A DNA stretch of 64,000 nucleotides from positions 186,001-250,000 of the forward strand of contig NZ_JANHDO010000003.1 of NCBI RefSeq assembly GCF_024494575.1, in the 5' to 3' direction. Positions 16,169 to 63,992 of the stretch are shown here, in pieces. Made by a program: the position numbers and the translations under genes. The notes under the pieces are model-generated. The model did no database searches. It worked only from the letters and a program-made list of their open reading frames with translations, and was not told where the DNA came from. The first letter of the stretch is position 1. Each line of letters starts with the position of its first letter. Origin of the DNA: Halorubrum salinum. GTDB taxonomy: Archaea; Halobacteriota; Halobacteria; Halobacteriales; Haloferacaceae.

Positions 16169-17164
16169 TCAAAGCGACAGGTCCACGCCGGTGGCCTCCG
16201 CGGAGTGCTCCCAGAGGCGTCGGGCGTCGTCGAGGTCGTAGGACGCGTCGTTCGAGCGGCCCACTATCGGCGACCCGCGCATGTTCAGGAGGCCGCCGGG
16301 CTCGACGTACGCGCCGCCGTCGACGTCGGCGGTCGCGGCGTACAACAACGGGAGCGCGCCCGTCGCGGCGTCCTGACCGAACACGGCGTTCGCGACGCGC
16401 ATCACGGCGGCGGCGAGAGGAGTGCCGCTCTCTTCTGCGGTCCGCATCTGGAGGTTCGTGGCGGCGTATCCGGGGTGACAGGCGACGCTGCGGACGCCGA
16501 CGGGGTCGTCGGCCGCGTCGATCCGCCGTTGCAGCTCGTAGGCGAAGAGCAGGTTCGCGAGCTTGCTCCGACCGTACGCGTCCCACTTGTCGTACGACTC
16601 CTCCCAGTTGAGGTCGGAAAAATCCATCTCGCCGCGCTCGTGTGCGCCCGACGACTGGGTGACGACGCGGGCGTCCCCGGCCCCGTCGGGCGTTCCGCTC
16701 CCCGGCCTCTCCGACCCGCCGTCTTCGATTCCGTCTGCGGCGGCGAGAAGCGGGAACAGCCGACAGGTGAGCGCGAAGTGGCCGAGGTGGTTGACGCCGA
16801 GTTGGGTCTCGAAGCCGTCGTCGGTCTCGCGCCGCGGGATCGCCATCACGCCCGCGTTGTTACACAGCACGTCGACGGCGTCGTAGCCGTCGGCGACGCC
16901 CTCGGCGAACGACGCCACCGAGTCGAGCGAGGCGAGGTCGCACTCGCGCACCTCCAGCGTACCGTCCGTGTCGCCGCCGGCGTCCGCGCGGATCTCGGCG
17001 GTCGCGTCCGCGCCGCGGTCGACGCTTCGACACGCCATCACGACCGTTGCTCCCCTCGCGGCGAACGCCCGCGTCGCCTCGAACCCGAGCCCGCTGTTCG
17101 CACCGGTGACGACGACCGTCTTCCCGTCCAGTCGCGGCATCTCGTCGGCCGTCCATCCTGCCAT
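16169..17164 (-). CDS. short-chain dehydrogenase/reductase
   Basis: The 331-residue protein has the classical SDR motifs: the nucleotide-binding TGANSGLG at 20-27, LCNNAGV, a catalytic Ser in TQSSGAHE, and the Tyr-Lys pair in YGRSK. It resembles retinol-dehydrogenase-like SDRs, which are common and poorly defined in haloarchaea, so the substrate is unknown. A Gly/Ser/Pro-rich insert (DGIEDGGSERPGSGTPDGAG) lies before the catalytic Ser. The start could also be the Met at residue 9. The spacer to the FAH-family gene upstream (72 bases) allows co-transcription. Confidence 0.88.
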   Translation of the reverse strand: MAGWTADEMPRLDGKTVVVTGANSGLGFEATRAFAARGATVVMACRSVDRGADATAEIRADAGGDTDGTLEVRECDLASLDSVASFAEGVADGYDAVDVLCNNAGVMAIPRRETDDGFETQLGVNHLGHFALTCRLFPLLAAADGIEDGGSERPGSGTPDGAGDARVVTQSSGAHERGEMDFSDLNWEESYDKWDAYGRSKLANLLFAYELQRRIDAADDPVGVRSVACHPGYAATNLQMRTAEESGTPLAAAVMRVANAVFGQDAATGALPLLYAATADVDGGAYVEPGGLLNMRGSPIVGRSNDASYDLDDARRLWEHSAEATGVDLSL

Positions 17165-17236
17165 ACGCTATCCGAGGCGCGTCACCACAAGAAACCTGTC
17201 GGCCGCGGCGTCAGTGGGCCGGCGCGGCTCGACCGG

Positions 17237-17980
17237 TCACGGGATCCGCACGTCGTGTTCGAGGACGCCGACGCCCTCGACGTCGACCTCGACGGTGTCG
17301 CCGTCGGAGAGCGGACCGACGCCCTCGGGCGTGCCGGTCGCGATCACGTCGCCGGCTTCGAGCGTCATGTACGTCGTGATCTCCTCTATCAGCGTGGGCA
17401 CGTCGAAGATCTGGTGTGCGCGGTCGCTCGACTGCTTCGTCTCGCCGTTCACGCGCAACTCGACGCTCGCGTCGTCGGGCACCTCGTCGGGCGTGGCGAG
17501 GACCGGGCCGAGCGGCGCGGCGTTGTCGAACGCCTTCCCACGGACCCAGTTCTGCTCTCTGTTCTGGTCGTCGCGGTTCGAGATGTCGTCCATGCAGGTG
17601 AACCCCGCCACCACGTCCATCGCGTCGTCGGCGTCGACGCCCTTGCACTGCTCGCCGATCACGACCGCGATCTCGGCCTCCCAGTCGATCCGGTCTTTGC
17701 CCGCCGGGACGGTGACGGTGTCGCCGTGGCTCGCGAGCGCGTTCGGCGGCTTCAAGAAAAGCAGGGGACGGTCGGGCACGTCGTTGCCAAGCTCCGCGGC
17801 GTGTTCGGCGTAGTTGCGGCCGATACACACGATCTTCGAGGGGTCGGTCGGCGGGAGCACGTCGATCTCGGGCGAGTCGAGCGCGTACTCGTCGCCGGCG
17901 AACGCGACGGTGTCGCTCGCGGGGTCGTACGTGCCTTCGCGGATCGATCCGGCCGGGTCGCGGAACCGTACGCGGTGCAT
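17237..17980 (-). CDS. fumarylacetoacetate hydrolase family protein
   Basis: The 247-residue protein has an FAH catalytic fold in its C-terminal two thirds: IVCIGRNYAEHAAELGN, PLLFLKPPNALASHGD, the metal-ligand segment DWEAEIAVVIG, FTCMDDISNRDDQ, and DVIATGTPEGVGPL. Family members hydrolyse or decarboxylate beta-diketo acids with Mg2+; examples are acylpyruvase, oxaloacetate decarboxylase and 2-hydroxyhepta-2,4-diene-1,7-dioate isomerase. Sequence alone does not choose between them. The N-terminal ~65 residues are the short lid domain typical of this subgroup. Confidence 0.9.
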   Translation of the reverse strand: MHRVRFRDPAGSIREGTYDPASDTVAFAGDEYALDSPEIDVLPPTDPSKIVCIGRNYAEHAAELGNDVPDRPLLFLKPPNALASHGDTVTVPAGKDRIDWEAEIAVVIGEQCKGVDADDAMDVVAGFTCMDDISNRDDQNREQNWVRGKAFDNAAPLGPVLATPDEVPDDASVELRVNGETKQSSDRAHQIFDVPTLIEEITTYMTLEAGDVIATGTPEGVGPLSDGDTVEVDVEGVGVLEHDVRIP

Positions 17981-18040
17981 GGTCGGCGTGTGCGAGGCCG
18001 CGGCACAAAGCGTTCCCGGTTCGGCCGCCGAGCGACCGAC

Positions 18041-19237
18041 TCACCGCCGCCGGAGGCGTATCGAGACGTCGTTGCCGCCCATGTCGCTCCTGTCGAACGC
18101 GAGGTCTCCGCCGAACGTCTCGACGGTGAGTTCCGTCAGCCAGAGCCCCAGACCGCTGCCGTGGTGCGTCGGCGTGATCTCCGCGCTGTCGAGGATCACC
18201 TCCCGCTCGTCGGGCGGTATTCGCGGGCCGTCGTCTTCGACCCGGAGGACGATCCACTCGCCGTCCGGGTCGCTCGCGGCGGTCGCGCCCTCGACGCTGA
18301 CGCGGACCCGCGGCGTCGGGCTCGGGTTGTGCTCTATCGCGTTGTCCACGAGGCTGTCCACGGCGTATCGCAGGCGGCTGTCTCCGAGCACGGACGCGGA
18401 CTCGGGAAGCGAGAGGGAGATATCGGCGGCCGGCGACCGCTCGCGGTGGTCCTCGACCACCGACCGGACGAGGGGGACCGGGTCGATCTCGTCGCCCTCC
18501 TCTGTCGGTCGGCGGAGCACGCGACGGATGTTCCCCGCCTCGTCCGCGAGCCGCTCCAGTTCGTGGGCCGCCCGCTCGATCGTCGCCGCCACGTCGACCG
18601 CCTCGTCGTCTCGCCGGTCCATCTCGGCGAGCAGGCGCGTCGTGTGGCCCGCGACGACGTTCGCGTTGTTGCGGATGTTGTGACGCAGGATGCGATTCAA
18701 CACCTTCAGCCGGCGTTCGTTCCGAGATATCTCCGTGAGGTCTGTGTACACGGCGAATCCGCCGTCTCTCGCCGCCTCGTCTCCCTCCGCGTACGGTACG
18801 CCTCGATACAGGAACTCCCGGAGTCCGGTCGCCGTCTCGCGTTTGACCTGCTGATAGTTGACTTCGCCGGCGGCGGAGCGCTCGTCGAGCCGGCGGGCCT
18901 CCTCGCGCTTCCAGTCTGGGACGATCCAGTCGTTGAGCGACCCGCCGCGTATCTCGCCCGGGTCGTAGCCGAAGACGTCGACGAACGCCCGGTTCACCGA
19001 CCGAACGATCGGTTCGTCGTCGACGAAGTCGAACTCGACGACAGCGTCCTGGACGTGTTCGATGAGGTGTCGGTAGCGGCCCGAATCGACCGCGCGGCCG
19101 TCGCCGGTCGGACGCGTTTCGGTCGCATGACCGTCGCCGGCGGTGCGCGTCTCGTCACCGCCGCGGTCGCTCCCGGCGCGCTCGGTACTCCCGGCCTCGC
19201 TCGCATCGTCCCCTCGACCCGATCGGTCACGCCCCAT
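18041..19237 (-). CDS. PAS-domain sensor histidine kinase
   Basis: The 398-residue protein is soluble, with no membrane segment. Residues 1-48 are a disordered Asp/Gly/Thr/Arg-rich head. Residues 52-170 form one PAS domain (YRHLIEHVQDAVVEFDF, GYDPGEIRGGS). A haloarchaeal dimerisation/phosphoacceptor helix follows with LRHNIRNN (His186), and then an HATPase domain with SLVDNAIEHN, VEDDGPRIP and HHGSGLGLWL. It autophosphorylates and passes phosphate to an unlinked response regulator; none is encoded nearby. The signal sensed is unknown. The gene is divergent from the hydrolase gene at 19454. Confidence 0.9.
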   Translation of the reverse strand: MGRDRSGRGDDASEAGSTERAGSDRGGDETRTAGDGHATETRPTGDGRAVDSGRYRHLIEHVQDAVVEFDFVDDEPIVRSVNRAFVDVFGYDPGEIRGGSLNDWIVPDWKREEARRLDERSAAGEVNYQQVKRETATGLREFLYRGVPYAEGDEAARDGGFAVYTDLTEISRNERRLKVLNRILRHNIRNNANVVAGHTTRLLAEMDRRDDEAVDVAATIERAAHELERLADEAGNIRRVLRRPTEEGDEIDPVPLVRSVVEDHRERSPAADISLSLPESASVLGDSRLRYAVDSLVDNAIEHNPSPTPRVRVSVEGATAASDPDGEWIVLRVEDDGPRIPPDEREVILDSAEITPTHHGSGLGLWLTELTVETFGGDLAFDRSDMGGNDVSIRLRRR

Positions 19238-19416
19238 GCTGTGGCTCCGAGGTCATTCGGTTCCGATACGTCGATGAAACTGTTAAGCGTGTAGTCGAGG
19301 GTCGATATTGCGATAAGGTGGTCTAGAAGTGATCGAGTGTCCTCATCGATCGAAGTTTGCGGGTGAACCGGACGTTCCTCACCACGAGCCTCCGGTCCGA
19401 CCCTCTGCGGTGTCGG

Positions 19417-20908: not shown

Positions 20909-21072
20909 ACCGAGCGATCGGTTCCCCGCCGACCTAAAACCGCCCCTTTCGGACGGGACTGACCGCGGCGCGTTTCCGACGCCGCGCGACCCCGAGCGGG
21001 CCCGAGCGTACCGAACACGTGTTCACTGTCTGACGCGTGGTGATTATCACTCGCGGAGTTTTGCGAGACACC

Positions 21073-21080
21073 TTTTTTAG
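21073..21080 (+). promoter_or_regulatory. TATA box of the pilus operon
   Basis: A T-rich TTTTTTAG lies about 27 bases before the ATG at 21103. It fits that start and argues against the in-frame upstream start at 21037, which would precede the promoter. Confidence 0.5.
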
Positions 21081-21102
21081 TACTCGTGAACAGTTCGAAG
21101 TT

Positions 21103-24057
21103 ATGACCACAGGGGACGCCGAGCGCTCGCCTCCGTCAGGGGACGGCACGGCGGAGCCGCCGGCGTTCGAGCCGGACGCCGTTCCCGATCTGTTGGCTGC
21201 GGGTGCGACCGCCGCCCGCCACCTCAGCGATCGCGTCGGTACGGGCGGTGAACGCGAGGGGCCGACGGCGGTGAAGGGGCGGTACACGTGGGACGACTAC
21301 GCGGAGGAGTTCTTTTTCGACGCTGACGGGACCCCCCCGACCGACGAGGAGGGGGAACCACGCGATTTCACGCACGCCGACAAGACCGAGGCGCTCGGGT
21401 TCGATCCCGACCGGACCGAACCGCTCCTCGGGGCCGGCGAGCGCGCGGCCGCGGACCTCGCGGACCTGGTCGACGAGCGTACGGTGAACGTGAACCCCGA
21501 CGTCGACGAGGACGCGTTCTTCTCGACCGACGACGGACGCGCGACACTCGCGAACCGCTACGACCTGGAGAAAGCGGTCCCGCTCCCGAAGAAGGCGCAC
21601 TTCCGCGAGATCGAGCGGTACTGGGTGAACAAGCCGTACGCGTTCGTGATGGTCTTCCGGTCCACGAAGGAGAACGAGGTGAAGTACTACGCGGTGCAGC
21701 CGTATCGGACCGAGATCGAGACCGACCTCGTCGAATTTCTCACCGGGAAGCTCCGCACGTCGATCAAGTACGCGGACGAGGCGATCGCCGGCGGCGACGA
21801 GACGTTCCGCGAGGGCGTCATCGTCGACGAGACGCTGACGCTTCTCGATCGATACGGCCTCTACGACCGCGCCGACGGCGGGCGGGGAGCCGTCGACGAC
21901 CTGATCGACGGCCTCTCCGATCGCTTCGGACTCGACGTCACCGCCGGTATCGCCGGGCGGATAACGGAGTCGCTCGGCTACGAGCCCCCGATGGAGGGGA
22001 GCGACGCCGCGACCGCGGTGCGCGCGCGGCCCGAGCCCGCGGTCCTCGCCGAGGACCCGGAGACGCTCACCGATCATCAGGTCGAAAAGCTGCTCTACTA
22101 CCTCAAGCGCGACTTCATCGGCTACGAGCGCATCGACCCGATAAAGTACGACATCAACGTCGAGGACATCTCCTGTGACGGGTACGACTCGCCCGTCTTC
22201 GTCTACCACTCCGACTACGAGCAGATCATCACCAACGTCTACCACGGCACCGACGAGCTGGACGACTTCGTCGTGAAGCTCGCACAGCGCTCCGGGAAGG
22301 GGATCTCGAAGCGTCGCCCGCAGGTCGACGCCACGCTCCCCGACGGCTCCCGCGCGCAGCTCACGCTCGGTCGGGAGGTTTCGGACCACGGCACGAACTA
22401 CACGATCCGGCAGTTCAACGACGTGCCCTTCACCCCGATCGACCTGATCAACTGGAAGACGTTCTCGCTCGACGAGATGGCCTTCCTGTGGCTCGCCATC
22501 GAGAACCACAAGAGCCTGATCTTCGCGGGCGGCACCGCCTCCGGGAAGACGACGAGCCTGAACGCGGTCTCGCTTTTCATCCCCTCGAACGCGAAGATCG
22601 TCTCCATCGAGGACACGCGCGAAGTCGAGCTTCCACAGCGCAACTGGATCGCCTCCGTCACCCGCCCCTCCTTCTCGGACGACGACAAGGGCGACATCGA
22701 CGAGTTCGACCTGCTTGAGGCCGCGCTCCGCCAGCGCCCCGACTACATCGTGATGGGCGAGATCCGCGGCGAGGAGGGCCGGACCGCATTCCAAGTGATG
22801 TCGACCGGCCACACCACCTACACCACCTTCCACGCCGACACGGTCGGCGAGGTGCTCAAGCGGTTCACCACCGACCCGATCAACGTCTCGAAGACGATGT
22901 TCACCGCCCTCGATCTCGTCTCCGTGCAGACGTCGACGCGGGTGCAGGGCCGGAAGGTGCGCCGCAACAAGTCGCTCACCGAGATCAACCACTACGACGC
23001 CGAGAACGACGAGATCAACGTCCAAGACGTGTTCCAGTGGCAGGCGGAGACGGACGAGTTCCTCCAGATGGGCGACTCGAACACGCTCGACGACATCATG
23101 TTCGACCGCGGGTGGAGCCGCGAGACGCTCGACGCCGAACTCCGGAAGCGGCGGATCGTGTTAGCGTACCTCATCGACCGCGGACTCAACAGCTACGCGC
23201 AGGTGGCGGCGACGTTTCAGGCGTTCATCAACGACCCGGAGACGGTGCTCGCGCTGATGGCCAACGAGGAGCTGGAGCGCTCGCTCGAGGACCTCCGCGA
23301 GATGGAGTCGGTCCTGATCAACGTCGACCGCGACAAGGAGGAGATGGTCCCGCGGCCGGAGCCCGACGAGGCGGGCCGCGAGGAGGTCGAAGGCATCCTC
23401 GACGAGGCCGAGGACCTGTTCGCGGAGTACCGCGGTCGGCTGCCCGACTCCGTCGCTGACGCGCTGCTCGACGTCGCGCCCGCCCGCGACGTGGAGGCCG
23501 AGCCGGACGCGGACCACGAGACGCTGGCGTCGACCGCGCGAGAGGCGGCGACGCTCGACGCCGAGGCGGTCTCGGCGGTCGGCGTCGAGTCAGACGCGCT
23601 CGACCCCGACCGTCTCGTCGGCGCAGATCCCGCCGGCGCAGATCCCGCCGGCGCAGATCCCGCCGGAGCGGACTCCGCGGGCGAGGCGAGTCCCGGATCG
23701 CCCCCGGCGTCCGACGTCGACGGGGACCGGTCGCCGGAGTCGACGACGTCGCCGCGAGCACCGACCGCGCCGGACCACGACGCGTTCGAGGGGGTGGCCG
23801 ACGCGACGCCTCCGTCGGAGAACGGACGCGACGACGAGGCCGTTGACGGGATCGACTTCGACGAACCCTTCGAGGAGGGAATCGACGTGTTGGGCCAGTC
23901 GCCGGGGGACGGGACCGAGGAGCAGGGAGACGAACCGGACGCGGACGAAGCCGACGATCAGGGTGGGAACGCAGACGGCGAGGGTGAGACCGGAACCGAC
24001 GACGAGCCGGACCGCGACTGGGGGTTCGGTACCGTCGATCCCCCGGAGGAGGACTGA
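21103..24057 (+). CDS. pilB: type IV pilus / type II secretion ATPase (PilB-TadA family), copy 1
   Basis: The 984-residue protein is an archaeal secretion ATPase that powers filament assembly at the inner face of the membrane. The N-terminal ~190 residues are a haloarchaeal head region. The domain before the ATPase has YWVNKPYAFVMVF and DISCDGYDSPVFVYH. Walker A is GGTASGKTTS near residue 475, the Asp box IEDTREVELP, Walker B IVMGEIRGEEG, and the His box TGHTTYTTFHAD. The last ~200 residues are an acidic, probably disordered tail with a short A-D-P-A-G repeat at about 841-856. The gene starts an operon with pilC 27 bases downstream. A shorter paralogue lies at 60151. Confidence 0.92.
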   Translation: MTTGDAERSPPSGDGTAEPPAFEPDAVPDLLAAGATAARHLSDRVGTGGEREGPTAVKGRYTWDDYAEEFFFDADGTPPTDEEGEPRDFTHADKTEALGFDPDRTEPLLGAGERAAADLADLVDERTVNVNPDVDEDAFFSTDDGRATLANRYDLEKAVPLPKKAHFREIERYWVNKPYAFVMVFRSTKENEVKYYAVQPYRTEIETDLVEFLTGKLRTSIKYADEAIAGGDETFREGVIVDETLTLLDRYGLYDRADGGRGAVDDLIDGLSDRFGLDVTAGIAGRITESLGYEPPMEGSDAATAVRARPEPAVLAEDPETLTDHQVEKLLYYLKRDFIGYERIDPIKYDINVEDISCDGYDSPVFVYHSDYEQIITNVYHGTDELDDFVVKLAQRSGKGISKRRPQVDATLPDGSRAQLTLGREVSDHGTNYTIRQFNDVPFTPIDLINWKTFSLDEMAFLWLAIENHKSLIFAGGTASGKTTSLNAVSLFIPSNAKIVSIEDTREVELPQRNWIASVTRPSFSDDDKGDIDEFDLLEAALRQRPDYIVMGEIRGEEGRTAFQVMSTGHTTYTTFHADTVGEVLKRFTTDPINVSKTMFTALDLVSVQTSTRVQGRKVRRNKSLTEINHYDAENDEINVQDVFQWQAETDEFLQMGDSNTLDDIMFDRGWSRETLDAELRKRRIVLAYLIDRGLNSYAQVAATFQAFINDPETVLALMANEELERSLEDLREMESVLINVDRDKEEMVPRPEPDEAGREEVEGILDEAEDLFAEYRGRLPDSVADALLDVAPARDVEAEPDADHETLASTAREAATLDAEAVSAVGVESDALDPDRLVGADPAGADPAGADPAGADSAGEASPGSPPASDVDGDRSPESTTSPRAPTAPDHDAFEGVADATPPSENGRDDEAVDGIDFDEPFEEGIDVLGQSPGDGTEEQGDEPDADEADDQGGNADGEGETGTDDEPDRDWGFGTVDPPEED
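23624..23668 (+). repeat. 15-bp tandem repeat coding A-D-P-A-G
   Basis: Three consecutive copies of a 15-base unit (GGCGCAGATCCCGCC) lie in the acidic tail of PilB copy 1, followed by a degenerate fourth (A-D-S-A-G). It keeps frame and adds five residues per copy, so length may vary between strains. Confidence 0.75.
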
Positions 24058-24084
24058 GCCGATGCACGCTGGGGGGCGAGTGCG

Positions 24085-26115
24085 ATGAGCGTGGACACGG
24101 GCGTCGGCGATGGCTCCGTCGACGGCGACCTCCTCGCGGAGCTGTTTTACCCGGCGTTCGAGCTCCTGTTCGACCCCGACGGCGACTTCGTCGGCGACGT
24201 CGAGCGAACGCTCGCGGAGGCGCGCATGCCCGATCAGGTCGAGATGTACGTGTCGCGCGCGCTCGGTGCGGGCGTCATCGTGGGCGGCGTCCTGTGGCTC
24301 GTCGGCACGCTCGTCGGCTACGGGATCTTCTCGCTCGGACTGCTCGATCCGACCGCGCTCTCGCTCGGTATCCCCGCCCCCAACCCGGCGGCTCAGGAGC
24401 TGCTTCGTTCGCTCGTCGTGCCGACGGCGATCGTCCTCAGCGGGCTCGTCTTCGGGTCGCTCGGCTTCGCTGCGGGGTTCGGCGGGCTCGTCGCGGTCCC
24501 CTACTCGCGGGCCTCGGCCCGCGAGCGCGAGATCAACCTCCTTCTCGCCGACTCCGTCTCGTTCATGTACGCGCTGTCGGTCGGCGGGCTCAACCAACTG
24601 GAGATCCTTCAGGCGATGGCCACGGCGGAGGACACCTACGGCGAGGTCTCTCGCGAGTTCCAGAGCATCGTCAACGAGACGGAGTACTTCGGCACGGACT
24701 ACCGGAACGCGATCCGCCAGCAGTCGATGGAGACCCCCTCTGACGAGCTGTCGCAGTTCCTCGCGGACATGCTCTCCATCGTCAACTCCGGCGGCGACAT
24801 GGAGAGCTTCCTGAAGGACAAAAAGGAGAAACACCTCCGCACCTCGAAACAGGAGCGCGAGATGACCTTGGAGACGCTGGAGCTGTTCGGCGAGATGTAC
24901 ATGACGCTCTCGCTTTTTCCGCTGCTCCTCATCATCATCCTCGTCATCATGGGGATGATGGGCGAGGCGGACGACCGGCTCCTGTACGCGACGGTGTACG
25001 CGCTCATCCCGCTGACGGGCGCGGGGTTCTTAGTGCTCGTCTCCACCGTGAAACAGGACGAGCCGGGAGACGGCTACCTCCGGCCGGACGGCGGCAGCGA
25101 GCGGCTCCGGCAGACCAGCAAGGAGGGGCTGTTCCACTTCGGGCTCGTCGAGGCGTTCGTCGGACGGTTCGGCGTCTTCGACCGGATCCGGAACAGGGAG
25201 GGGACCTACAAGACGAAACAGATCCTCGCCTCGCCGCACCTGTTCTTGCGCGACAATCCGCTCTACACCCTCGCGCTGACGGTGCCGACCGCGCTCGTCA
25301 TCGTCGTCGTCGCGGCGGTCGGCGGGAGCGCGCCGACGACGTTCGACGGGTGGGTCGCCCGACCGGTGTGGGCGACGTTCGTCTGGGTGTACGTTCCGAC
25401 GTACCTCGTGTTGGTCCCGCTCGCGGTGTTCCACGAGTGGAGCCAGCGGTCGAAGCGGGCCATAACGGGGAAGCTCTCCGAGAGCCTCCGGAAGCTCTCG
25501 TCTGCGAATGACACCGGACAGACCCTGCTCGAATCGGTCGAGACCGTCGCGGACACGTCGAGCGGGACGCTCGCCGAGGAGTTCGAGGTGATCCACGCCA
25601 AGGTGAACTACGGGATGAGTCTCCGGGACGCTCTGGTCGAGTTCAACAACGCGTACGCGGTCCCGCGGCTGGCCCGCACGGTGAAGCTCATCTCGGAGGC
25701 ACAGGAGGCCTCCTCGCAGATCACGGACGTGTTGACGACGGCGGCGCAGGCCTCGGAGAACCAGGACGACATCGAGCGCGAGCGCCGCTCTCGCACGCGG
25801 ATGCAGGTCGCGATCATCGTGATGACGTACGTGACGCTTCTCGGCGTGATGGCGATACTCCAGACGCAGTTCATCGACGTGATGGGCGGGCTCTCCTCGC
25901 AGGCCGAGGGCGGTTCGGCGGGCGCGGGCTTCGGCGGCGGTGGCGGCGTCGACCCCGACGTCCTCTCGCTTCTGTTCTTCCACGCGGTGACGCTGCAGGC
26001 GATCCTGTCGGGGTTCATCAGCGGGTACATCCGCAACGCCGACATCGTCTCCGGCGTCAAGTTCGCCGTCGTCCTCCTGACGCTCGCGCTGGGGGTGTGG
26101 ATCTATGTCGGATGA
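24085..26115 (+). CDS. pilC: type II secretion F-family membrane platform protein (PilC/TadC), copy 1
   Basis: The 676-residue protein has two T2SF domains, each an amphipathic helical region followed by membrane helices. The first has FMYALSVGGLNQLEILQAMA and the second has SGTLAEEFEVIHAKVNYGMS and LARTVKLISEAQEASSQITD. Several membrane helices are visible (about residues 60-80, 110-140, 270-310, 390-450, 570-590, 630-675). It forms the membrane base on which the PilB ATPase acts. It overlaps the next pilin-like gene by 11 bases. The Gly-rich segment GSAGAGFGGGGGVDPD lies outside the membrane between the last helices. Confidence 0.9.
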   Translation: MSVDTGVGDGSVDGDLLAELFYPAFELLFDPDGDFVGDVERTLAEARMPDQVEMYVSRALGAGVIVGGVLWLVGTLVGYGIFSLGLLDPTALSLGIPAPNPAAQELLRSLVVPTAIVLSGLVFGSLGFAAGFGGLVAVPYSRASAREREINLLLADSVSFMYALSVGGLNQLEILQAMATAEDTYGEVSREFQSIVNETEYFGTDYRNAIRQQSMETPSDELSQFLADMLSIVNSGGDMESFLKDKKEKHLRTSKQEREMTLETLELFGEMYMTLSLFPLLLIIILVIMGMMGEADDRLLYATVYALIPLTGAGFLVLVSTVKQDEPGDGYLRPDGGSERLRQTSKEGLFHFGLVEAFVGRFGVFDRIRNREGTYKTKQILASPHLFLRDNPLYTLALTVPTALVIVVVAAVGGSAPTTFDGWVARPVWATFVWVYVPTYLVLVPLAVFHEWSQRSKRAITGKLSESLRKLSSANDTGQTLLESVETVADTSSGTLAEEFEVIHAKVNYGMSLRDALVEFNNAYAVPRLARTVKLISEAQEASSQITDVLTTAAQASENQDDIERERRSRTRMQVAIIVMTYVTLLGVMAILQTQFIDVMGGLSSQAEGGSAGAGFGGGGGVDPDVLSLLFFHAVTLQAILSGFISGYIRNADIVSGVKFAVVLLTLALGVWIYVG

Positions 26116-26710
26116 CCGCGCCGGCCGGATCGGACGGCGGGCGCTCGGCGACCGGAGCGAGCGCCCCGAACCGGTCGGACTCGGCGACCGCCGCGCGCAG
26201 ACGCCGATCGACTTCGCGGTCGGCGCGGGCGTGTTCCTGTTGACGCTCGCGTTCGTGGTCGCGTTCGTCCCGTCGCTCTTCGATCCGTTCGCCGCGGCCG
26301 ACACGGCCGCGCCGCTCGTGAGCGACCGGATCGCCGCCGCGCTCGCCGACGACGTCCTCGCCGCGTCGCCCGCGGATCCGGGCGTGTTGTCGCCCGCGTG
26401 CACCGTCGCCTTCTTCGAACCGAACGGCACCCTCGCTACCGACGCCGGCTGTGCAGACGGCGTCGCGACCAGCCCGGACGCGCAGTTCGGCCTCGACCGC
26501 GACGTGCAGGTCGTGATACACCGACCGGACGAGACGGCCCCGAGCGAGAACCCGGCGAACGTCACGATACCGACCAGACACGGCACGTTCGAGGACGTCG
26601 TGCTCTCCCGGCCGGAATCGCCCGGCGACGCCGGCGGCGACGTCACCGTCTCACAGCGGCTCGTCTCGCTCCACGGCGAGCAGTATCGGCTCACGGTGCG
26701 GGTGTGGTGA
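26105..26710 (+). CDS. pilin-like secreted or membrane-anchored protein 1 of pilus operon
   Basis: The 201-residue protein has a short cytoplasmic head, then D-R-R-A-Q (28-32) immediately before a hydrophobic helix (DFAVGAGVFLLTLAFVVAFV) and a large extracellular part with several cysteines (CTVAFF, CADG). The arrangement is that of an archaeal type IV pilin or minor pilin, with a possible class III cleavage between Ala31 and Gln32. I cannot assign a named family. It overlaps pilC by 11 bases and ends 2 bases before the next gene, so it is translated as part of the operon. Confidence 0.7.
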   Translation: MSDDRAGRIGRRALGDRSERPEPVGLGDRRAQTPIDFAVGAGVFLLTLAFVVAFVPSLFDPFAAADTAAPLVSDRIAAALADDVLAASPADPGVLSPACTVAFFEPNGTLATDAGCADGVATSPDAQFGLDRDVQVVIHRPDETAPSENPANVTIPTRHGTFEDVVLSRPESPGDAGGDVTVSQRLVSLHGEQYRLTVRVW

Positions 26711-26712
26711 CG

Positions 26713-27351
26713 ATGCGGGGACTCCTCGACCGGCTCGGCGGCGGACGGCGCGACCGCGCGCAGGCGCACACCTTAGAGGCGTTCGCGGCGGCCATCCTGC
26801 TCGTCGCGGGGCTGACGTTCGCCCTGCAGGCGACGGCCGTGACGCCGCTTTCGGCCAGCACGTCGAACCAGCACATCGAGAACCAGCAGCGCGCGGTCGC
26901 GGGCGACCTGCTCGCGACGAGCGCGGACAACGGCGACCTCGAGTCGGCGCTGCTCTACTGGGACCCCGAGGCCGATTCCGGCGACGGCGCGTTCGTGGGG
27001 ACGGGCGAAGACGAGAGCTACACCGAGGGCGGTCCGCCGAACGACTTCGGCGAGACGCTGAACCGGACGTTCCTCGACCGATCGATCGCGTTCAACGTGG
27101 ATATCCGACACGGCGACCGCAACGAGAACCGGACGGAGGTGGTGGACATGGGGAGGCCGAGCGACAACGCGGTGACCGCGAGGCGGTCGGTCGCGCTCGC
27201 AGACGACGCGAACCTGACGGCTCCCGGGTACGAAGACACGACGCTCCGTCAACTGGAGGGCGACCCCGGCGCGTTCTACGTCGAAGACGACGTCGTCGCC
27301 GGCGACGTGTACGACTACGTGGAGGTGCGCATCGTCGTATGGCGGATGTGA
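26713..27351 (+). CDS. pilin-like protein 2 of pilus operon
   Basis: The 212-residue protein begins MRGLLDRLGGGRRDRAQAH. D-R-A-Q (14-17) comes directly before the hydrophobic helix TLEAFAAAILLVAGLTFALQ. A Q at +1 and a Glu a few residues later resemble the archaeal class III prepilin site recognised by PibD/FlaK-type peptidase. The extracellular part is acidic with several N-x-S/T sites (NRT and NLT). The ATG at 26713 lies just after the previous stop; in-frame GTG codons at 26704 and 26707 are alternatives. It overlaps the next gene by 13 bases. Confidence 0.7.
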   Translation: MRGLLDRLGGGRRDRAQAHTLEAFAAAILLVAGLTFALQATAVTPLSASTSNQHIENQQRAVAGDLLATSADNGDLESALLYWDPEADSGDGAFVGTGEDESYTEGGPPNDFGETLNRTFLDRSIAFNVDIRHGDRNENRTEVVDMGRPSDNAVTARRSVALADDANLTAPGYEDTTLRQLEGDPGAFYVEDDVVAGDVYDYVEVRIVVWRM

Positions 27352-28337
27352 ACGTCCCGCCCGCGGCCGACGGCGACGAGGCGGACGACGAGAGGCGTCT
27401 CCGCGACGGCGACCGCTTCCGCGACGCCGACCGCGGACAGCTCCTGTTGGTCGCCGGACTGGTCATGGCCGTCTCGCTGGTGGCGCTCGTGGTCCTGTTG
27501 AACGCGAGCATCTACAGCGAGAACCTCGCGACGCGCGGTATCGAGGCCGCCGACGGCGAGCCCCTCGAAATCAGGGCGGCCGCGGTCGACGGAACCGGGA
27601 CGCTGATCGACGCGACGAACCGCGAGCGCCCCGACAGCTACGGTTCCGCCGAGACCGCGGTCGAAGACGGGATCACCGACCTCGACGGGCGGCTCGCGCG
27701 GACCGCGGCCGAACGCGGCGGGATCTCTCAGCTGAACCCGACCGGGGATGGCCTCCGAGAGGGCCGATACGTCGCGGGCTCGGTCGACGACTCGGCGGCC
27801 GTCCGGGACGCAGAGCGGACGCGGGCGTTCGTGTTCGCGGTCGGGGAGCCGTCGCTTCCGGACGCGAGCGCGTCGACCGCTCCCGGGACGGCCGTCACCG
27901 TCGTGTTCAACCGAACCGGATCGAACACCACCCACGAGGTGTACGTGTACGACCCGGACGACGGGTCGGACGAAGCGGCGGTCGCGACCGCGACGAACGG
28001 GACGGACGCGACGGAGACGTGTCGGCTGGAGACGGTCGACGGCGGGCGGCTTCCGGTCGATCTCACCGCTGGGACGATCGACGGCGAACCGTGTCCGGGG
28101 ATCTGGCCGGCGGAACTGCGCGGGGACGCCGATCCGTACGACATCGAGTTCGCGAACGCCGACGGCGTCGACGCCGAGATGACCGCGACCGCGCTCACGA
28201 CGAGGGAGCCGGACGGCCCGCTGGCGGACGCATCCTCTCCGGCGGTGTACGACGCCACCCTCCGGTTCCGCTACCGGACGGCGGACGTCCGGTTCGAGAC
28301 GACCGTTCGGGTCGCCCCGGGTGAACCCGATGAGTGA
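27339..28337 (+). CDS. pilin-like protein 3 of pilus operon
   Basis: The 332-residue protein has a 30-residue acidic head, then D-R-G-Q (31-34) before the helix LLLVAGLVMAVSLVALVVLL. The extracellular domain is about 270 residues long and Thr/Asp-rich, with many N-x-S/T sequons (NRTGSNTTHE, NGTDATE) and two Cys-containing segments (ETCRLE, EPCPGIW). It is the largest of the five and may be a minor pilin or tip-like subunit; that is inference. It overlaps the following gene by 8 bases. Confidence 0.7.
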   Translation: MADVNVPPAADGDEADDERRLRDGDRFRDADRGQLLLVAGLVMAVSLVALVVLLNASIYSENLATRGIEAADGEPLEIRAAAVDGTGTLIDATNRERPDSYGSAETAVEDGITDLDGRLARTAAERGGISQLNPTGDGLREGRYVAGSVDDSAAVRDAERTRAFVFAVGEPSLPDASASTAPGTAVTVVFNRTGSNTTHEVYVYDPDDGSDEAAVATATNGTDATETCRLETVDGGRLPVDLTAGTIDGEPCPGIWPAELRGDADPYDIEFANADGVDAEMTATALTTREPDGPLADASSPAVYDATLRFRYRTADVRFETTVRVAPGEPDE

Positions 28338-28875
28338 CGCCGGCAGCGAGGGCCGGTCCGCCTCGATCCCTCCCGCGGCGGGGGGCGGCCGGGGGTCGCT
28401 CGCAGCCGACGACAGGGCCGTGAGCGTCACCGTCGGCTACGTGCTCACGCTCGCGATCGGCGCGCTGCTGCTCTCCGGAGTCGTCGTCGCCGTCGGCGGC
28501 GTGATAGACGGGCAGACGCAGCGGACCGTCGAGAGCGAACTCGCCGTCGCCGGGCAGACGGCCGTCGCGAATCTCGAGGCCGCGGATCGGCTCGCTCGCG
28601 CCGCCGAGGCCGATCGTCCGGGAAGCGAGGGAGACGTGACCGTCGCGGTCGAGGCCGACCTCCCGTCGCGGATCGCGGGGAGACCGTATCGGATCGCGGT
28701 CGACTCGGACGCGGTCGCGGTCCGGACCGATAGCCCCGACGTCCGGATCGAGATCCCTCACGCCGCGACCCGAGACGTGTCGCCGACGACGGTTCGCGGT
28801 GGGGCGATCCGCATCAGATACACCGTCGCCGACGGGGCCTCTGGGCCGGGGACACTCGAGGTGACGGAGCGATGA
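28330..28875 (+). CDS. pilin-like protein 4 of pilus operon
   Basis: The 181-residue protein has D-D-R-A-V-S (27-32) before the helix VTVGYVLTLAIGALLLSGVVVAV. This matches the haloarchaeal pilin N-terminus pattern (R-A-V-S-P-V-I-G in many PilA proteins). The rest is a small beta-rich acidic domain. ATG 28330 is preferred; a GTG at 28321 is also in frame. The start overlaps the previous stop by 8 bases, and the stop overlaps the next start by 4 bases (ATGA). Confidence 0.75.
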   Translation: MSDAGSEGRSASIPPAAGGGRGSLAADDRAVSVTVGYVLTLAIGALLLSGVVVAVGGVIDGQTQRTVESELAVAGQTAVANLEAADRLARAAEADRPGSEGDVTVAVEADLPSRIAGRPYRIAVDSDAVAVRTDSPDVRIEIPHAATRDVSPTTVRGGAIRIRYTVADGASGPGTLEVTER

Positions 28876-29708
28876 GCGACGGAGCGCGGCTCCGCGGGCG
28901 AGGCGACGGGGACGAACGCGGAGGCCGGGCCCCGACGATCTCGGTCGCCGACGGCGGGTTCGCGGGGCTCGCGTCCGACGACCGGGGCGTGAGCAACGTC
29001 GTGGGGTACGTCCTCGTGTTCTCGCTCGTCACCGTCACGATCGGGACGGTGTTCACGGTCGGGCTCGCCGGGGTGGAAGACAGACAGGAGGCGGCGCGTC
29101 TCGCGAACGTCGAGCGCGCCTTCGAGGTGCTCGACGACAACGTTCGGGACATCCAGCGGTACGACGACCCCAGCCGGTCGACGGAGATCAGGATGAACGG
29201 GGGGCGACTCGCCGTCGCCGATCCGACGACGGTGTGGATCGAAAACGAGAGCGGGGGACGGATAACGAGGGAGATCACGACCCGGCCGATCGAGTACACG
29301 AGCGGAGACACGACGATCGCCTACGAGGCCGGAGCGCTGTTCCGGAGCGATTCGGGCGGAACGGCGGTGCTGTCCGACCCTCCGTTCGTCGCCGCAGAGG
29401 GCGAAACGGTCCTCCCCGTCGTCCGGCTGTTAGAGGTGTCCGGTGCCGTGACCGCCGGCGGGGACGGGACCGTCCAGATCGAGACGGGCACGCCGAACGA
29501 CGGCGGACTCACCCGACTCGACGCCGCGGACGACCCCCACGAGATCCGGATCGAGTCGCCGCGAGCGCCCGCGTGGGGACGGTACTTCGATCGCACCGAC
29601 GGCTTCGGGGACGTCACCGCGAACGAGACCGTCGCGAGCGCGACGCTCACGGAGAACCAGACCGTGTACGTCCGCCGGATAGCCATCGACGCCGCGCTTC
29701 GGTCGTGA
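28872..29708 (+). CDS. pilin-like protein 5 of pilus operon
   Basis: The 278-residue protein has a 36-residue head containing SVADGGF, then D-D-R-G-V-S-N-V-V-G (36-45) before the helix YVLVFSLVTVTIGTVFTVGL, again the haloarchaeal pilin pattern. The large extracellular part has N-x-S/T sites (NETV, NQTV) and beta-strand-rich sequence. It is the last gene of the operon: a 77-base spacer with a new TATA box separates it from the transcription factor S gene. Confidence 0.75.
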   Translation: MSDGARLRGRGDGDERGGRAPTISVADGGFAGLASDDRGVSNVVGYVLVFSLVTVTIGTVFTVGLAGVEDRQEAARLANVERAFEVLDDNVRDIQRYDDPSRSTEIRMNGGRLAVADPTTVWIENESGGRITREITTRPIEYTSGDTTIAYEAGALFRSDSGGTAVLSDPPFVAAEGETVLPVVRLLEVSGAVTAGGDGTVQIETGTPNDGGLTRLDAADDPHEIRIESPRAPAWGRYFDRTDGFGDVTANETVASATLTENQTVYVRRIAIDAALRS

Positions 29709-29785: not shown

Positions 29786-30106
29786 ATGAAGTTCTGCGAC
29801 GAGTGCGGCTCGATGATGAAGTCGGGCGAGGGCGAAGACCACTGGGTGTGTGACTCCTGCGGCTACGAGATCGGGCGCGAGGACGACGACGACGAGTGGA
29901 CCACGGAGTCGCAGGTCGAATCGGAGGTCGTGGACGTGAGCGACGCGGAGGACAAGGGTCTCCCGAAGACCACCGCGCACTGCCCCGAGTGCGGTAACGA
30001 CCGCGCGTACTGGTACATGCAACAGATCCGCTCTGCCGACGAGTCCGAGACCCGATTTTTCGTCTGTACCGAGTGCGAGCACAAGTGGCGCGAAGACGAC
30101 CACTGA
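29786..30106 (+). CDS. tfs: transcription factor S
   Basis: The 106-residue protein is the archaeal TFIIS/RPB9-like factor that stimulates RNA cleavage by stalled RNA polymerase. It has an N-terminal zinc ribbon with Cys4, Cys7, Cys22 and Cys25. The C-terminal zinc ribbon (CPECGN, CTECEHKW) contains the acidic Asp-Glu tip in QIRSADESET that reaches the polymerase active site. The linker is acidic (EDDDDEWTTESQVESEV). Both ribbons and the DE tip are intact, so it should be a functional cleavage factor. It has its own strong promoter. Confidence 0.96.
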   Translation: MKFCDECGSMMKSGEGEDHWVCDSCGYEIGREDDDDEWTTESQVESEVVDVSDAEDKGLPKTTAHCPECGNDRAYWYMQQIRSADESETRFFVCTECEHKWREDDH

Positions 30107-60150: not shown

Positions 60151-61842
60151 ATGGCGAGTGACACCGGAGCGGCCGACCTCGAAGGAAGCGTCGAGGACCT
60201 CCGGCGACGCCTCTCGCGCGTGTGGGAGACGCTTCGCGGCGTGGACATCGACGTCCGCCCGTTCCGACCGGGGCGAGACGGCCCGCTCGCTACGTTCGAC
60301 GTTCCCGAGGGCGAACGCGAGATCGACCGGTACTGGGTGAACGCCCCGTACGCGTACGTCGTCGTCACCTACGACGACGCGGACAGCGAACACCGGTACT
60401 ACGCGGTCGAACCGGACCTAGACCGGTTCGAGCGCGACCTCCTCGACCGCGTCGTCGACGATATCCGCGACCCGCTGCTCTATCGCGAGGGGACCGGCAA
60501 GACCGACGCGGCGACGCTCCGGGGGGAACTGGAGTCGCTCCTCGAGAGCTACGGCGTCGACGCCGGGATGGACACCTTCCACGCGCTCACCTACTACCTC
60601 TACCGCGACTTCCGCGGCTACGGGCGGGTCGACCCGCTCCTCAACGACCGCCACATCGAGGACGTCTCGTGTGACGGCTACGACCTGCCGATCTTCGTCT
60701 ACCACGACGAGTACACTGACATCCAGACGAACGTCTCGTTCGGGAAACAGGAGCTCGACAACTACGTGATCCGGCTCGCCCAGCAGTCCGGGCGGCACGT
60801 CTCCGTCGGCGACCCGATCGTGGAGACGACGCTGCCGGACGGCTCGCGCGCGGAACTCGCGCTCGGCGAGGAGGTGACGCCGCGCGGCTCCGCGTTCACG
60901 ATCCGCCAGTACGCGGAGGACCCGTTCACGCCGATCGACCTCGTGGAGTACGGCACCTTCTCGATCGAGCAGATGGCGTACTTCTGGCTCTGTATCGAGC
61001 ACAACAAGAGCCTGATCTTCGCGGGCGGCACCGCCTCCGGGAAGACTACCTCGATGAACGCGGTGTCGATGTTCGTCCCGCCGCGCGCGAAGGTGCTCAC
61101 CATCGAGGACACGCGCGAACTCTCTCTGTATCACGACAACTGGCTCTCGTCTGTCACCCGCGAGCGCCGCTACGAGGGCACCGACATCGACATGTACGAC
61201 CTCCTTCGGTCCGCGCTGCGGCACCGCCCCGAGTACATCATCGTCGGCGAGGTCCGCGGTGACGAAGCGATCACCCTGTTTCAGGCGATGAACACGGGTC
61301 ACACGACGTTCTCGACGATGCACGCCGACTCGATCGAGACGGTCATCAACCGGCTGGAGAACGAGCCGATCAACGTGCCGCGCGCGATGGTCCAGTCGCT
61401 CGACATGCTCTCGATCCAGACGCTGACGCGGTCCGGCGACCAGCGCGTGCGACGCGCGAAGACGATCGGCGAGATCGGGGGGATAGACCAGCGGACCGGC
61501 GAACTCGACTACTCGTCGGCATTCGAATGGGACGCCGAGAGCGACGAGTTCCGCCGAAACGACTCGTCGCTGATGGACGAGATCGCCGACGAGCGTGGCT
61601 GGTCCCGGTCGGAATTGCTCCGCGAGATCGAGCGACGCGAGCGGTTCCTCGAACTCCTTCGCGCGCTCGACGTCACCGACTACCGCACGTTCACCGCCCT
61701 CGTTAACGAGTACTACGCCGACCCGGAGCGCGTGATGGACCGGCTCGAATCGCGCGCCGACGGGACGGCGGCGGACGACGGCGACCGGCGGGGTGACGTC
61801 ACCGCCGGCGGCGAACGCGCAGCCGACGCCGACCGCCGATGA
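60151..61842 (+). CDS. pilB: type IV pilus / type II secretion ATPase (PilB family), copy 2
   Basis: The 563-residue protein lacks the long acidic tail and the ~130-residue extra head of copy 1 at 21103. It has RYWVNAPYAYVVVTYD, DVSCDGYDLPIFVYHDEY, Walker A GGTASGKTTS near residue 291, the Asp box IEDTRELSLY, Walker B IIVGEVRGDEAITLFQ, and the His box TGHTTFSTMHAD. It is complete and should be active. A 43-base stretch over Walker A (61004-61046) is identical to copy 1. It overlaps the second pilC by 4 bases. This is a separate filament or secretion system, not a duplicate of the first operon. Confidence 0.92.
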   Translation: MASDTGAADLEGSVEDLRRRLSRVWETLRGVDIDVRPFRPGRDGPLATFDVPEGEREIDRYWVNAPYAYVVVTYDDADSEHRYYAVEPDLDRFERDLLDRVVDDIRDPLLYREGTGKTDAATLRGELESLLESYGVDAGMDTFHALTYYLYRDFRGYGRVDPLLNDRHIEDVSCDGYDLPIFVYHDEYTDIQTNVSFGKQELDNYVIRLAQQSGRHVSVGDPIVETTLPDGSRAELALGEEVTPRGSAFTIRQYAEDPFTPIDLVEYGTFSIEQMAYFWLCIEHNKSLIFAGGTASGKTTSMNAVSMFVPPRAKVLTIEDTRELSLYHDNWLSSVTRERRYEGTDIDMYDLLRSALRHRPEYIIVGEVRGDEAITLFQAMNTGHTTFSTMHADSIETVINRLENEPINVPRAMVQSLDMLSIQTLTRSGDQRVRRAKTIGEIGGIDQRTGELDYSSAFEWDAESDEFRRNDSSLMDEIADERGWSRSELLREIERRERFLELLRALDVTDYRTFTALVNEYYADPERVMDRLESRADGTAADDGDRRGDVTAGGERAADADRR

Positions 61843-63992
61843 TCGCGTACATTCCGCTCGCCGCCGCGCTCGCGGCCTGCGTCGCCGTACTCCTCCCGGC
61901 GGTCAGCCGCCGCGCCGACCGGTTCGCCACGCGGCTCGGGCTGCTGGCGTTCGGAGACGCGGTCGTCGGCGACCCCGAGCGACGCCGACGGCAACGCGAC
62001 CGGCTCCGCGCGGCCCACGTCGCCGGAACACACCGCGAGTACGCGTCGAAGACCCTCCTGTACGCCGGCGTCCTCGGCGTCGCGGGAAGCGTCATCGGCG
62101 TGTACGCCGTCGGCGGACTCCTCTCGATGCTTTCGGTCGGAGAGGCGACGCTGCGCGGGCTGCTCCCCGAACCGCTCTCGTTTCTCGCCGGGATCGCACG
62201 GCTCACTGAACTGGGGCTGTCACAGCTGTTCCTCCTGCTCGCGTTCGCGTCGGCGACGGTCGGATCCGCGCTCGCGGCGGGAGCGTACTACGGTCGCTGG
62301 GAGCTGTTGCGCCAGCGCGCCCACACGCGATCGACGGCGATCGACGCCACGCTCCCGCGGACCGTCGCGTTCATGTACGCGCTCTCGCGGTCGGGGATGG
62401 CCTTCCCTCGGGTGATGGACACGGTCGCGGAGAACGAGGCCGTCTACGGCGAGGCCGCGACGGAGCTGTCGATCGCGGTGCGCGATATGAACGCCTTCGG
62501 AACCGACGCGCTGACCGCGCTCCAGCGGACCGCGCGCCGGACGCCGAGCGAGGACCTCGGTGACTTCGCGGAGAACCTCGCGTCGGTGCTCGGCACCGGT
62601 CAGCCGATCTCGGCGTTCCTGAGCGACCAGTACGACCGGTATCAAGAGGAGGCCGAGTCGAAACAGGAGCAGTACCTCGAACTGCTCTCGACGTTCGCGG
62701 AGGCGTACGTCACGGCGCTCGTCGCCGGGCCGCTGTTTTTCATCACGATACTCGTCGTGATCGGGCTCGTGTTACAGGACACGCTCCCGCTTCTCCGCGT
62801 GGTCGTGTACCTCGGCTTACCCCTCGCCACGTTCGGCTTCGTCGTCTACGTCGACAGCGTGGCGCAGGGCGTGGGCGGTACGGAGACCGTCAGCGACGGG
62901 GATGAGACGGCCGACGGCGACGCGGCGCTCGGGCGGACGACCACGGCGCAGGCCGACGGAGGAGAGCCCGTCCGAGGGCCGGACGCGGCCGACGGCGAGC
63001 GCGACGCCGCCGGTCCGGCCGACCCGTGGACCGCGAGCCGGGAGCGGCTCCGCGTCTACGACCGCCTCCGGAGGGTCAGAGAGTGGGTCGCGTCGCCGCT
63101 TTCGAGTGTCCTCGCCGAACCGCACACGGTGGTTTTCGTCTCCGTCCCCCTCGCACTCGTCGGCTTTCTTGCCGCGGTGCTCCCGGTGGCGAGCGGGACG
63201 CCCGTCGAGGTGGTCGACCAGTTCGACACGGCGTTCGTCGTCGCGACCGCCGCCGCGCTCGGGTCGTACGCGGCGGTGTACGAGGTCAGCAAACGGCGCG
63301 TTCGGCGGCGAGAGGCGGCGGTCCCCGACTTCCTCGACCGGCTCGCCAGCGTCAACGAGGCCGGAACGTCCGTCGTCGGTGGGATTCGCCGCGTGGCCGA
63401 TTCGAACCTCGAAGCGCTGACGGCGGACGTACAGCGGACCCGACGCGATATCGACTGGGGGGCGGACGCCGCCACGGCGCTGCGGCGACTGAAACGCCGC
63501 GTGCGGTCGCCGATGGTCTCGCGTGCGGTCACGCTCGTTTCGAACGCGATGTACGCGAGCGGCGACATCGGTCCCGTCCTCCGGATCGCCGCGGACGAGG
63601 CGCGCGCGACGTGGTCGCTTCGGCGCGAGCGCCGACAGGTCATGCTCACGTACCTCGTCGTGATCTACATCTCTTTTTTCGTCTTCCTCGGGATCATCGC
63701 CGCGCTCTCCGTGTCCTTTATCCCCGCGGTCGAGTCCGCAGCGGTCCCGGGTAGCGGGACGTCCGCGAGCGGCGGACTCCCGGGCGGCCAGTCCGGGATC
63801 GTGGACGGACTCGGCGACATCGACGCGTTCGCCTACGAGCAGCTGTTCTTCCACGCGGCGGCGGTGCAGGCGGTCTGCTCGGGGCTCGTCGCCGGCCAGC
63901 TCGGGGAGGGGTCGGTACGTGACGGCGTGAAACACGTCGTCGTGCTGCTCGCGCTGACGCTCGCCGCGTTCGCCGTGATCGGGTTCGTCTGA
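61839..63992 (+). CDS. pilC: type II secretion F-family membrane platform protein (PilC), copy 2
   Basis: The 717-residue protein has two T2SF domains (TVAFMYALSRSGMAFPRVMDTV; VPDFLDRLASVNEAGTSVVGGI) and about eight to nine membrane helices, as in copy 1. The cytoplasmic linker between the halves (about 345-405) is Asp/Gly-rich and contains QADGGEPVRG. The C-terminus has GSGTSASGGLPGGQSG before the last helices, similar to the Gly-rich loop of copy 1. It overlaps pilB copy 2 by 4 bases. Only eight bases follow in the window, so any pilin genes of this system lie beyond the right edge. Confidence 0.9.
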   Translation: MIAYIPLAAALAACVAVLLPAVSRRADRFATRLGLLAFGDAVVGDPERRRRQRDRLRAAHVAGTHREYASKTLLYAGVLGVAGSVIGVYAVGGLLSMLSVGEATLRGLLPEPLSFLAGIARLTELGLSQLFLLLAFASATVGSALAAGAYYGRWELLRQRAHTRSTAIDATLPRTVAFMYALSRSGMAFPRVMDTVAENEAVYGEAATELSIAVRDMNAFGTDALTALQRTARRTPSEDLGDFAENLASVLGTGQPISAFLSDQYDRYQEEAESKQEQYLELLSTFAEAYVTALVAGPLFFITILVVIGLVLQDTLPLLRVVVYLGLPLATFGFVVYVDSVAQGVGGTETVSDGDETADGDAALGRTTTAQADGGEPVRGPDAADGERDAAGPADPWTASRERLRVYDRLRRVREWVASPLSSVLAEPHTVVFVSVPLALVGFLAAVLPVASGTPVEVVDQFDTAFVVATAAALGSYAAVYEVSKRRVRRREAAVPDFLDRLASVNEAGTSVVGGIRRVADSNLEALTADVQRTRRDIDWGADAATALRRLKRRVRSPMVSRAVTLVSNAMYASGDIGPVLRIAADEARATWSLRRERRQVMLTYLVVIYISFFVFLGIIAALSVSFIPAVESAAVPGSGTSASGGLPGGQSGIVDGLGDIDAFAYEQLFFHAAAVQAVCSGLVAGQLGEGSVRDGVKHVVVLLALTLAAFAVIGFV

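Follow-up and report, generated by a model that had tools for sequence, protein, structure and literature searches.

What do five small genes lined up behind a pilus motor in Halorubrum salinum encode, and do their products belong to one filament? We addressed this question in a 64,000-nucleotide stretch of contig NZ_JANHDO010000003.1 (assembly GCF_024494575.1, positions 186,001 to 250,000; hereafter the window), in which seven genes run on the plus strand from 21037 to 29708: a PilB-type assembly ATPase, a PilC-type membrane protein and five small genes whose products we call P1 to P5. The operon probably represents a dedicated archaeal type IV pilus-like machine that assembles five class III prepilins into one heteromeric filament. 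Taken separately, and judging from sequence, cleavage of the five proteins at the predicted sites is very likely, and their membership of one joint filament is likely.

The initial annotation placed five consecutive pilin-like genes at 26105-29708, and these coordinates are exact: all five lie on the plus strand, and neighbours overlap or stand 2 nucleotides apart. Each product has a Pfam match above the cut-off, to DUF7287 (P1, 26105..26710, PF23958, 8.8e-43), DUF7288 (P2, 26713..27351, PF23959, 1.7e-61), DUF7261 (P3, 27339..28337, PF23922, 2e-11), DUF7266 (P4, 28321..28875, PF23928, 9.8e-26) and DUF7289 (P5, 28872..29708, PF23960, 5.4e-58). The tetrapeptides RRAQ, DRAQ, DRGQ, DRAV and DRGV stand in that order before the sole N-terminal hydrophobic helix, as first described. 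A hydropathy scan agrees, finding in each protein a single strong hydrophobic 19-residue window (mean hydropathy 2.04-3.05; best elsewhere <=1.21) that starts 2-10 residues past the predicted +1 residue. Class III prepilin sites combine a charged residue at -2 with Gly, Ala or Ser at -1, according to an excerpt of an earlier review (PMC4371748), and all five window proteins carry Arg at -2, Ala or Gly at -1 and a hydrophobic segment after it. Cuts are predicted at A↓Q in P1 and P2, G↓Q in P3, A↓V in P4 and G↓V in P5 (↓ marks the site), with first mature codons at 26198, 26761, 27438, 28420 and 28989. Leaders of 31 (P1), 16 (P2), 33 (P3) and 39 (P5) residues would be removed, leaving ectodomain-bearing proteins of 151-299 residues, with 170 in P1 and 151 in P4, the smallest mature subunit. 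P4 begins with GTG and also has an in-frame ATG at 28330.

We shuffled the leader plus two residues 200,000 times per protein and found R[AG][QV] in exactly the observed position with p = 0.002-0.006 for each. The joint probability for P1 to P5, a product that presumes independence and a post hoc motif, was 6e-13, or 1.4e-9 when any of five neighbouring positions was allowed. We also scanned all six frames of the 64 kilobases (kb) for [RK][AGS] followed by a hydrophobic stretch without charged residues. Of the 11 hits, the only 4 lacking a further downstream hydrophobic segment were P1, P2, P4 and P5; P3 was missed because the filter disallows the Asn that it carries towards the end of its hydrophobic stretch.

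Stronger evidence than these shuffle statistics comes from homologues, in which Arg at -2 is invariant or near-invariant. Our alignments held 111-114 distinct segments per family from 40 genome stretches, 80 named loci and the window, with identical segments removed beforehand and a divergent outlier locus (L054) included. Arg occupies -2 in 549 of the 561 rows (108/111 in DUF7287, 114/114 in DUF7288, 103/112 in DUF7261, 113/113 in DUF7266 and 111/111 in DUF7289), which bears out the class III sites proposed for all five. Ranked by majority residue, this column is third in DUF7287, fifth in DUF7261 and first in the remaining families. With few exceptions the rows have Ala or Gly at -1, and R[AG]↓ is kept at 92-100% in the five families against a mean column identity of 23-37%. 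The longer motif D-R-[AG]-[QV], initially read as shared, was ruled out as a conserved element: its R[AG]↓ core stands, but Asp at -3 varies (26/111, 60/114, 87/112, 71/113 and 59/111, in the same order). Asp at +5 of P1 is kept in DUF7287 (109/111), as is Glu at +6 of P2 in DUF7288 (113/114).

The residue after the site divides the families. Gln stands at +1 in DUF7287 (109/111), DUF7288 (113/114) and DUF7261 (110/112), and Val in DUF7266 (96/113) and DUF7289 (84/111). The proposed split into a Gln class and a Val-Ser class is thus maintained across haloarchaea, although DUF7289 is mixed, with Gln in 19 of its 111 rows. HHalign comparisons of the N-termini with a PilA-type profile gave probabilities of 87.9 for DUF7289 and 60.3 for DUF7266, against 4.4 for DUF7261, 0.3 for DUF7288 and 0.2 for DUF7287, placing PilA-like helices only in the Val-Ser class. 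DUF7266 and DUF7289 thereby resemble PilA/Pilin_N proteins in their Val-Ser start, frequent Gly at +6 and helix, whereas the other three differ from them in Gln at +1 and unlike helices. Between families, pairwise HHalign, whose E-values lack database calibration, joined DUF7266 to DUF7289 with a probability of 95.0 limited to 49 N-terminal columns, and the N-terminus of DUF7261 to DUF7287 (77.0) and DUF7288 (71.9). At the level of the helix, the two classes are real. The ectodomains had been described as unrelated, which is doubtful for DUF7287 and DUF7288: their full profiles align with a probability of 90.9 over 141 columns, nearly full length, although the ectodomains alone reach only 29.0. 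P1 and P2 may therefore have related ectodomains.

The prepilin peptidase presumed by the initial annotation is present as a single A24 gene, one reading frame matching both A24/Arc_PepC_II models (PF01478 and PF06847). It was the sole match in the genome, where no second, EppA-like A24 peptidase was found. In Methanococcus, by the same review excerpt, EppA requires Gln at +1, and the Epd pilins resemble the Gln class in carrying Gln there after a basic residue and Gly or Ala (RAQ, KGQ; PMC4371748). With a single peptidase gene, one enzyme would have to process both classes in H. salinum, if both are cut, unlike in Methanococcus. The +5 Glu is also absent here; DUF7287 carries Asp at +5 and DUF7288 Glu at +6.

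Linkage to the upstream PilB-PilC, likewise part of the initial proposal, is conserved. Of 41 loci (40 plus the window), 40 carry the five families on a single strand, and 39 were found to have PilB and PilC; the 80 named loci contain the five in order in 72, and several others are cut by contig edges. The window PilB (21037..24057, 1006 residues from a GTG, with an in-frame ATG at 21103 as a possible alternative start) matches T2SSE (6.5e-31) and PilB3_C (1.3e-9), with a PilB3_N match under the Pfam cut-off and long N- and C-terminal extensions. It groups in the tree with same-locus PilB proteins of other haloarchaea, its nearest named relative being that of Halorubrum yunnanense (86% identity). 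The PilC/TadC membrane platform protein (24085..26115, 676 residues) matches T2SSF in two stretches (1.7e-27). In the family sample, 106 of 119 genomes have DUF7288; in the class sample 273 of 292 do, or 272 of 291 when only good Halobacteria genomes are counted. One locus, L054 (genome G035), is divergent: DUF7261 is missing, the DUF7288-like protein is without the QAHTLE start, and PilB falls outside the clade. Searches of phage records and viral contigs returned no relative of DUF7288, although four of the five proteins have matches among PHROGs of unknown function, possibly through a mis-called provirus in that library.

In the class sample, 19 genomes are without DUF7288. DUF7287 occurs in 0/19 of them, against 5/5 DUF7288-positive genomes, and nine contain no close relative of this PilB, their best matches being at <=52% identity. 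Among the others, one has the locus at a contig edge (G328), one contains broken pieces (G272) and eight, all of one genus, retain PilB, unbroken in six. These eight weaken co-loss as a simple proof of joint function. DUF7266 is unusable for this comparison because it has matches in 11 of the 19 negative genomes and outside the operon in positive ones.

The genus with retained motors offers a natural replacement. Its eight genomes are without DUF7287 and DUF7288, and their PilB, at 68-74% identity, falls inside the clade of this locus (28-row set, support 99/98). Seven of the eight have, next after PilC, a gene for one pilin, [DE]R[AG]↓VSPVVGF, with about 510-630 residues past the site, so that the motor pair is again accompanied by a pilin, here of Val-Ser type. 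Three of these pilins were tested with Pfam; two have similarity to the immunoglobulin-like Big_1 domain, one of them above the cut-off. Open stop-to-stop PilB frames of 721-780 codons are present in six genomes (L175-L178, L180 and L181). A TGA counted inside the PilB matches of six genomes probably reflects alignments that overrun the stop, since these frames were open on re-reading. PilB of G266 (L182) is split, with about 6.4 kb between its two parts, which suggests an insertion, and the eighth genome, G223 (L179), carries PilB and PilC as fragments and gave no pilin match. This combination of PilB-PilC with one other pilin supports the view, found in the excerpted text of Makarova 2016, of a modular evolution of motor and pilins (PMC4858521). 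H. salinum itself encodes, directly after another PilC on contig C6 (L089:184-1785), a 533-residue RAVSPVIG pilin with weak Big_1 similarity, whose build resembles the single pilin of that genus.

The five do not make up the complete set, and the initial proposal needs amendment on this point. Most loci have a further, longer DUF7289 paralogue nearby, usually divergent from pilB, with a median of 493-502 residues past the site. It lies on the opposite strand in 24/41 and 53/80 loci, and short and long forms have exchanged positions in 5 of the 41 and 7 of the 80. Its +1 residue is mostly Gln (16/25 and 42/48 where the pattern found a site), and 27 further long frames gave no site by the pattern used. 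In H. salinum, the long form is on another contig (C4, L088:1486-2907) and combines RG↓QSEVIG with a C-terminal DUF7305. According to the excerpt of Makarova 2016 (PMC4858521), the pilins of such loci include a family, arCOG02911, that tends to duplicate and varies in length; we infer that it corresponds to DUF7289.

Models of two subunits fit a pilin build but do not prove it. AlphaFold2 predicts for DUF7266 one 70-residue helix (28-97) followed by seven strands, with a predicted local distance difference test (pLDDT) score of 86.3, and for DUF7288 helices at 14-42 and 46-73, two short helices and four strands (pLDDT 87.0). PDB sequence searches with the five profiles gave scattered matches only, among them Natrinema PilA2 with DUF7266 (E 0.69). 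A coiled-coil PDB chain hit by DUF7287 (E 4.2e-5) was discounted as helix similarity.

Several observations weigh against one joint filament of these five subunits. None of them reaches the Pilin_N cut-off (PF07790, 25.2 bits): P4 scores 12.8 and P5 18.4 bits (0.004 for P5), and P1 to P3 have no match. PDB fold searches with the DUF7266 and DUF7288 models returned no significant match and no pilin, 9 of the 112 DUF7261 rows are without [RK][AGS] at the aligned site, and PilB-PilC of this type is evidently able to sit with other pilins. In addition, 10 of 124 loci (11 if one weak match is counted) have a PilA-type gene no more than about 9 kb away, which makes a PilA-type shaft possible. The five could accordingly be minor pilins that form a starter or tip complex for a shaft of PilA-type pilins encoded elsewhere. 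That the operon usually contains one copy of each family would suit such a role, as would the strong Pilin_N genes elsewhere in the H. salinum genome and the Haloferax mediterranei megaplasmid pHME505, where the five subunits are annotated as hypothetical proteins and a PilA-type pilin is the next annotated gene (L187:10110-10535). However, most of the 124 loci are without a PilA-type gene in the stretch examined, the genus described above pairs PilB-PilC with a single pilin with immunoglobulin-like parts, and Haloferax volcanii expresses pilB4-pilC4, yet has no PilA pili after deletion of pilB3-pilC3 (PMC4371748, in excerpt). We consider a purely minor role rather unlikely.

Somewhat less likely still is that the processed proteins remain short pseudopilus-like assemblies, a piston for secretion or sensing that never extends into a pilus. 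In its favour, several of the ectodomains are sizeable and no small, abundant shaft subunit is obvious, and a pilus of this locus goes unreported in the excerpts of PMC4371748 and PMC12542753, although this may reflect a lack of looking under expressing conditions. Against it, no gene for a secreted substrate or channel was recognised beside the operon among the ten window proteins scanned with Pfam. It is very improbable that the motif is coincidental and that these are ordinary single-pass proteins whose Arg- and Asp-rich haloarchaeal N-termini precede membrane anchors: Asp and Arg are indeed common in the leaders, and the Asp at -3 varies among homologues, but near-invariant Arg at -2 with Ala or Gly at -1 in five families, operon linkage to PilB-PilC and a joint shuffle probability of at most 1.4e-9 argue against chance.

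For the heteromeric filament that we favour, assembly would begin with membrane insertion, after which PibD would cleave off the charged leader behind R-[AG], so that the hydrophobic helix becomes N-terminal. PilB and PilC would next extract the subunits from the membrane and stack them as a single filament. Within it, DUF7266 and DUF7289, with their PilA-like helices, might build the shaft, and DUF7287, DUF7288 and DUF7261 the tip or starter complex; we offer this assignment of Val-Ser and Gln subunits tentatively. Minor pilin tip complexes of bacterial type IV pili and type II secretion systems offer an analogy, as they also consist of several co-encoded, divergent, mostly single-copy pilins. 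They differ in that PDB searches gave no sequence or fold match of the subunits described here to a bacterial pilin.

A locus of this type is already predicted in the literature. The excerpt of Makarova 2016 places the Haloferax volcanii PilB4-PilC4 locus with its own pilins in clade 2, second type, and describes a long halobacterial ATPase extended at both its N- and C-terminus, followed by TadC/PilC and a dedicated pilin set (PMC4858521), as here. By gene content and description, the H. salinum system fits the PilB4 type, and its ATPase fits HVO_1160 by description. The H. volcanii control genome matches DUF7287 and DUF7288, and the same-locus PilB of Haloferax gibbonsii (L142, cut by a contig end) groups with the window PilB. 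The excerpted earlier review differs in naming only two relatively large, co-regulated, FlaFind-positive pilins for PilB4 (PMC4371748). In H. gibbonsii, PilB4-PilC4 is normally expressed above PilB3-PilC3 and is down-regulated by virus, its impact being said to await establishment, in the part of the 2025 study excerpted (PMC12542753). The five DUF names are absent from the literature searched. To this picture we add site statistics, the coexistence of two helix classes with only one peptidase gene, the longer DUF7289 paralogue and a genus in which all five subunits are replaced.

The genome contains seven T2SSE ATPase matches, two of them in the window. A second PilB-PilC pair stands at the window end, about 30 kb from the first: its PilB (60151-61842) has strong PilB3_N and PilB3_C matches, and its PilC-like partner (61839-63992) is a T2SSF protein. 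Directly 3' of P5 is a transcription factor S gene (29786-30106), and TTTATATA lies about 25 bases upstream of it, which suggests a transcription unit separate from the pilin operon. At 16205-19294, a large open reading frame of 1029 residues has no Pfam match and may represent either a gene or a chance frame.

Nearly all Halobacteria genomes sampled contain this operon, yet its five subunits bear DUF names only. More speculatively than the division into shaft and tip, the operon might encode a near-universal haloarchaeal heteropolymeric pilus, with a Gln tip or starter and a Val-Ser shaft matured by one peptidase, and with a motor independent of its subunits, because one genus replaced all five by a single pilin with immunoglobulin-like parts. 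The exact predicted cut sites, the two subunit classes and this natural replacement make the composition and function of the pilus directly testable.

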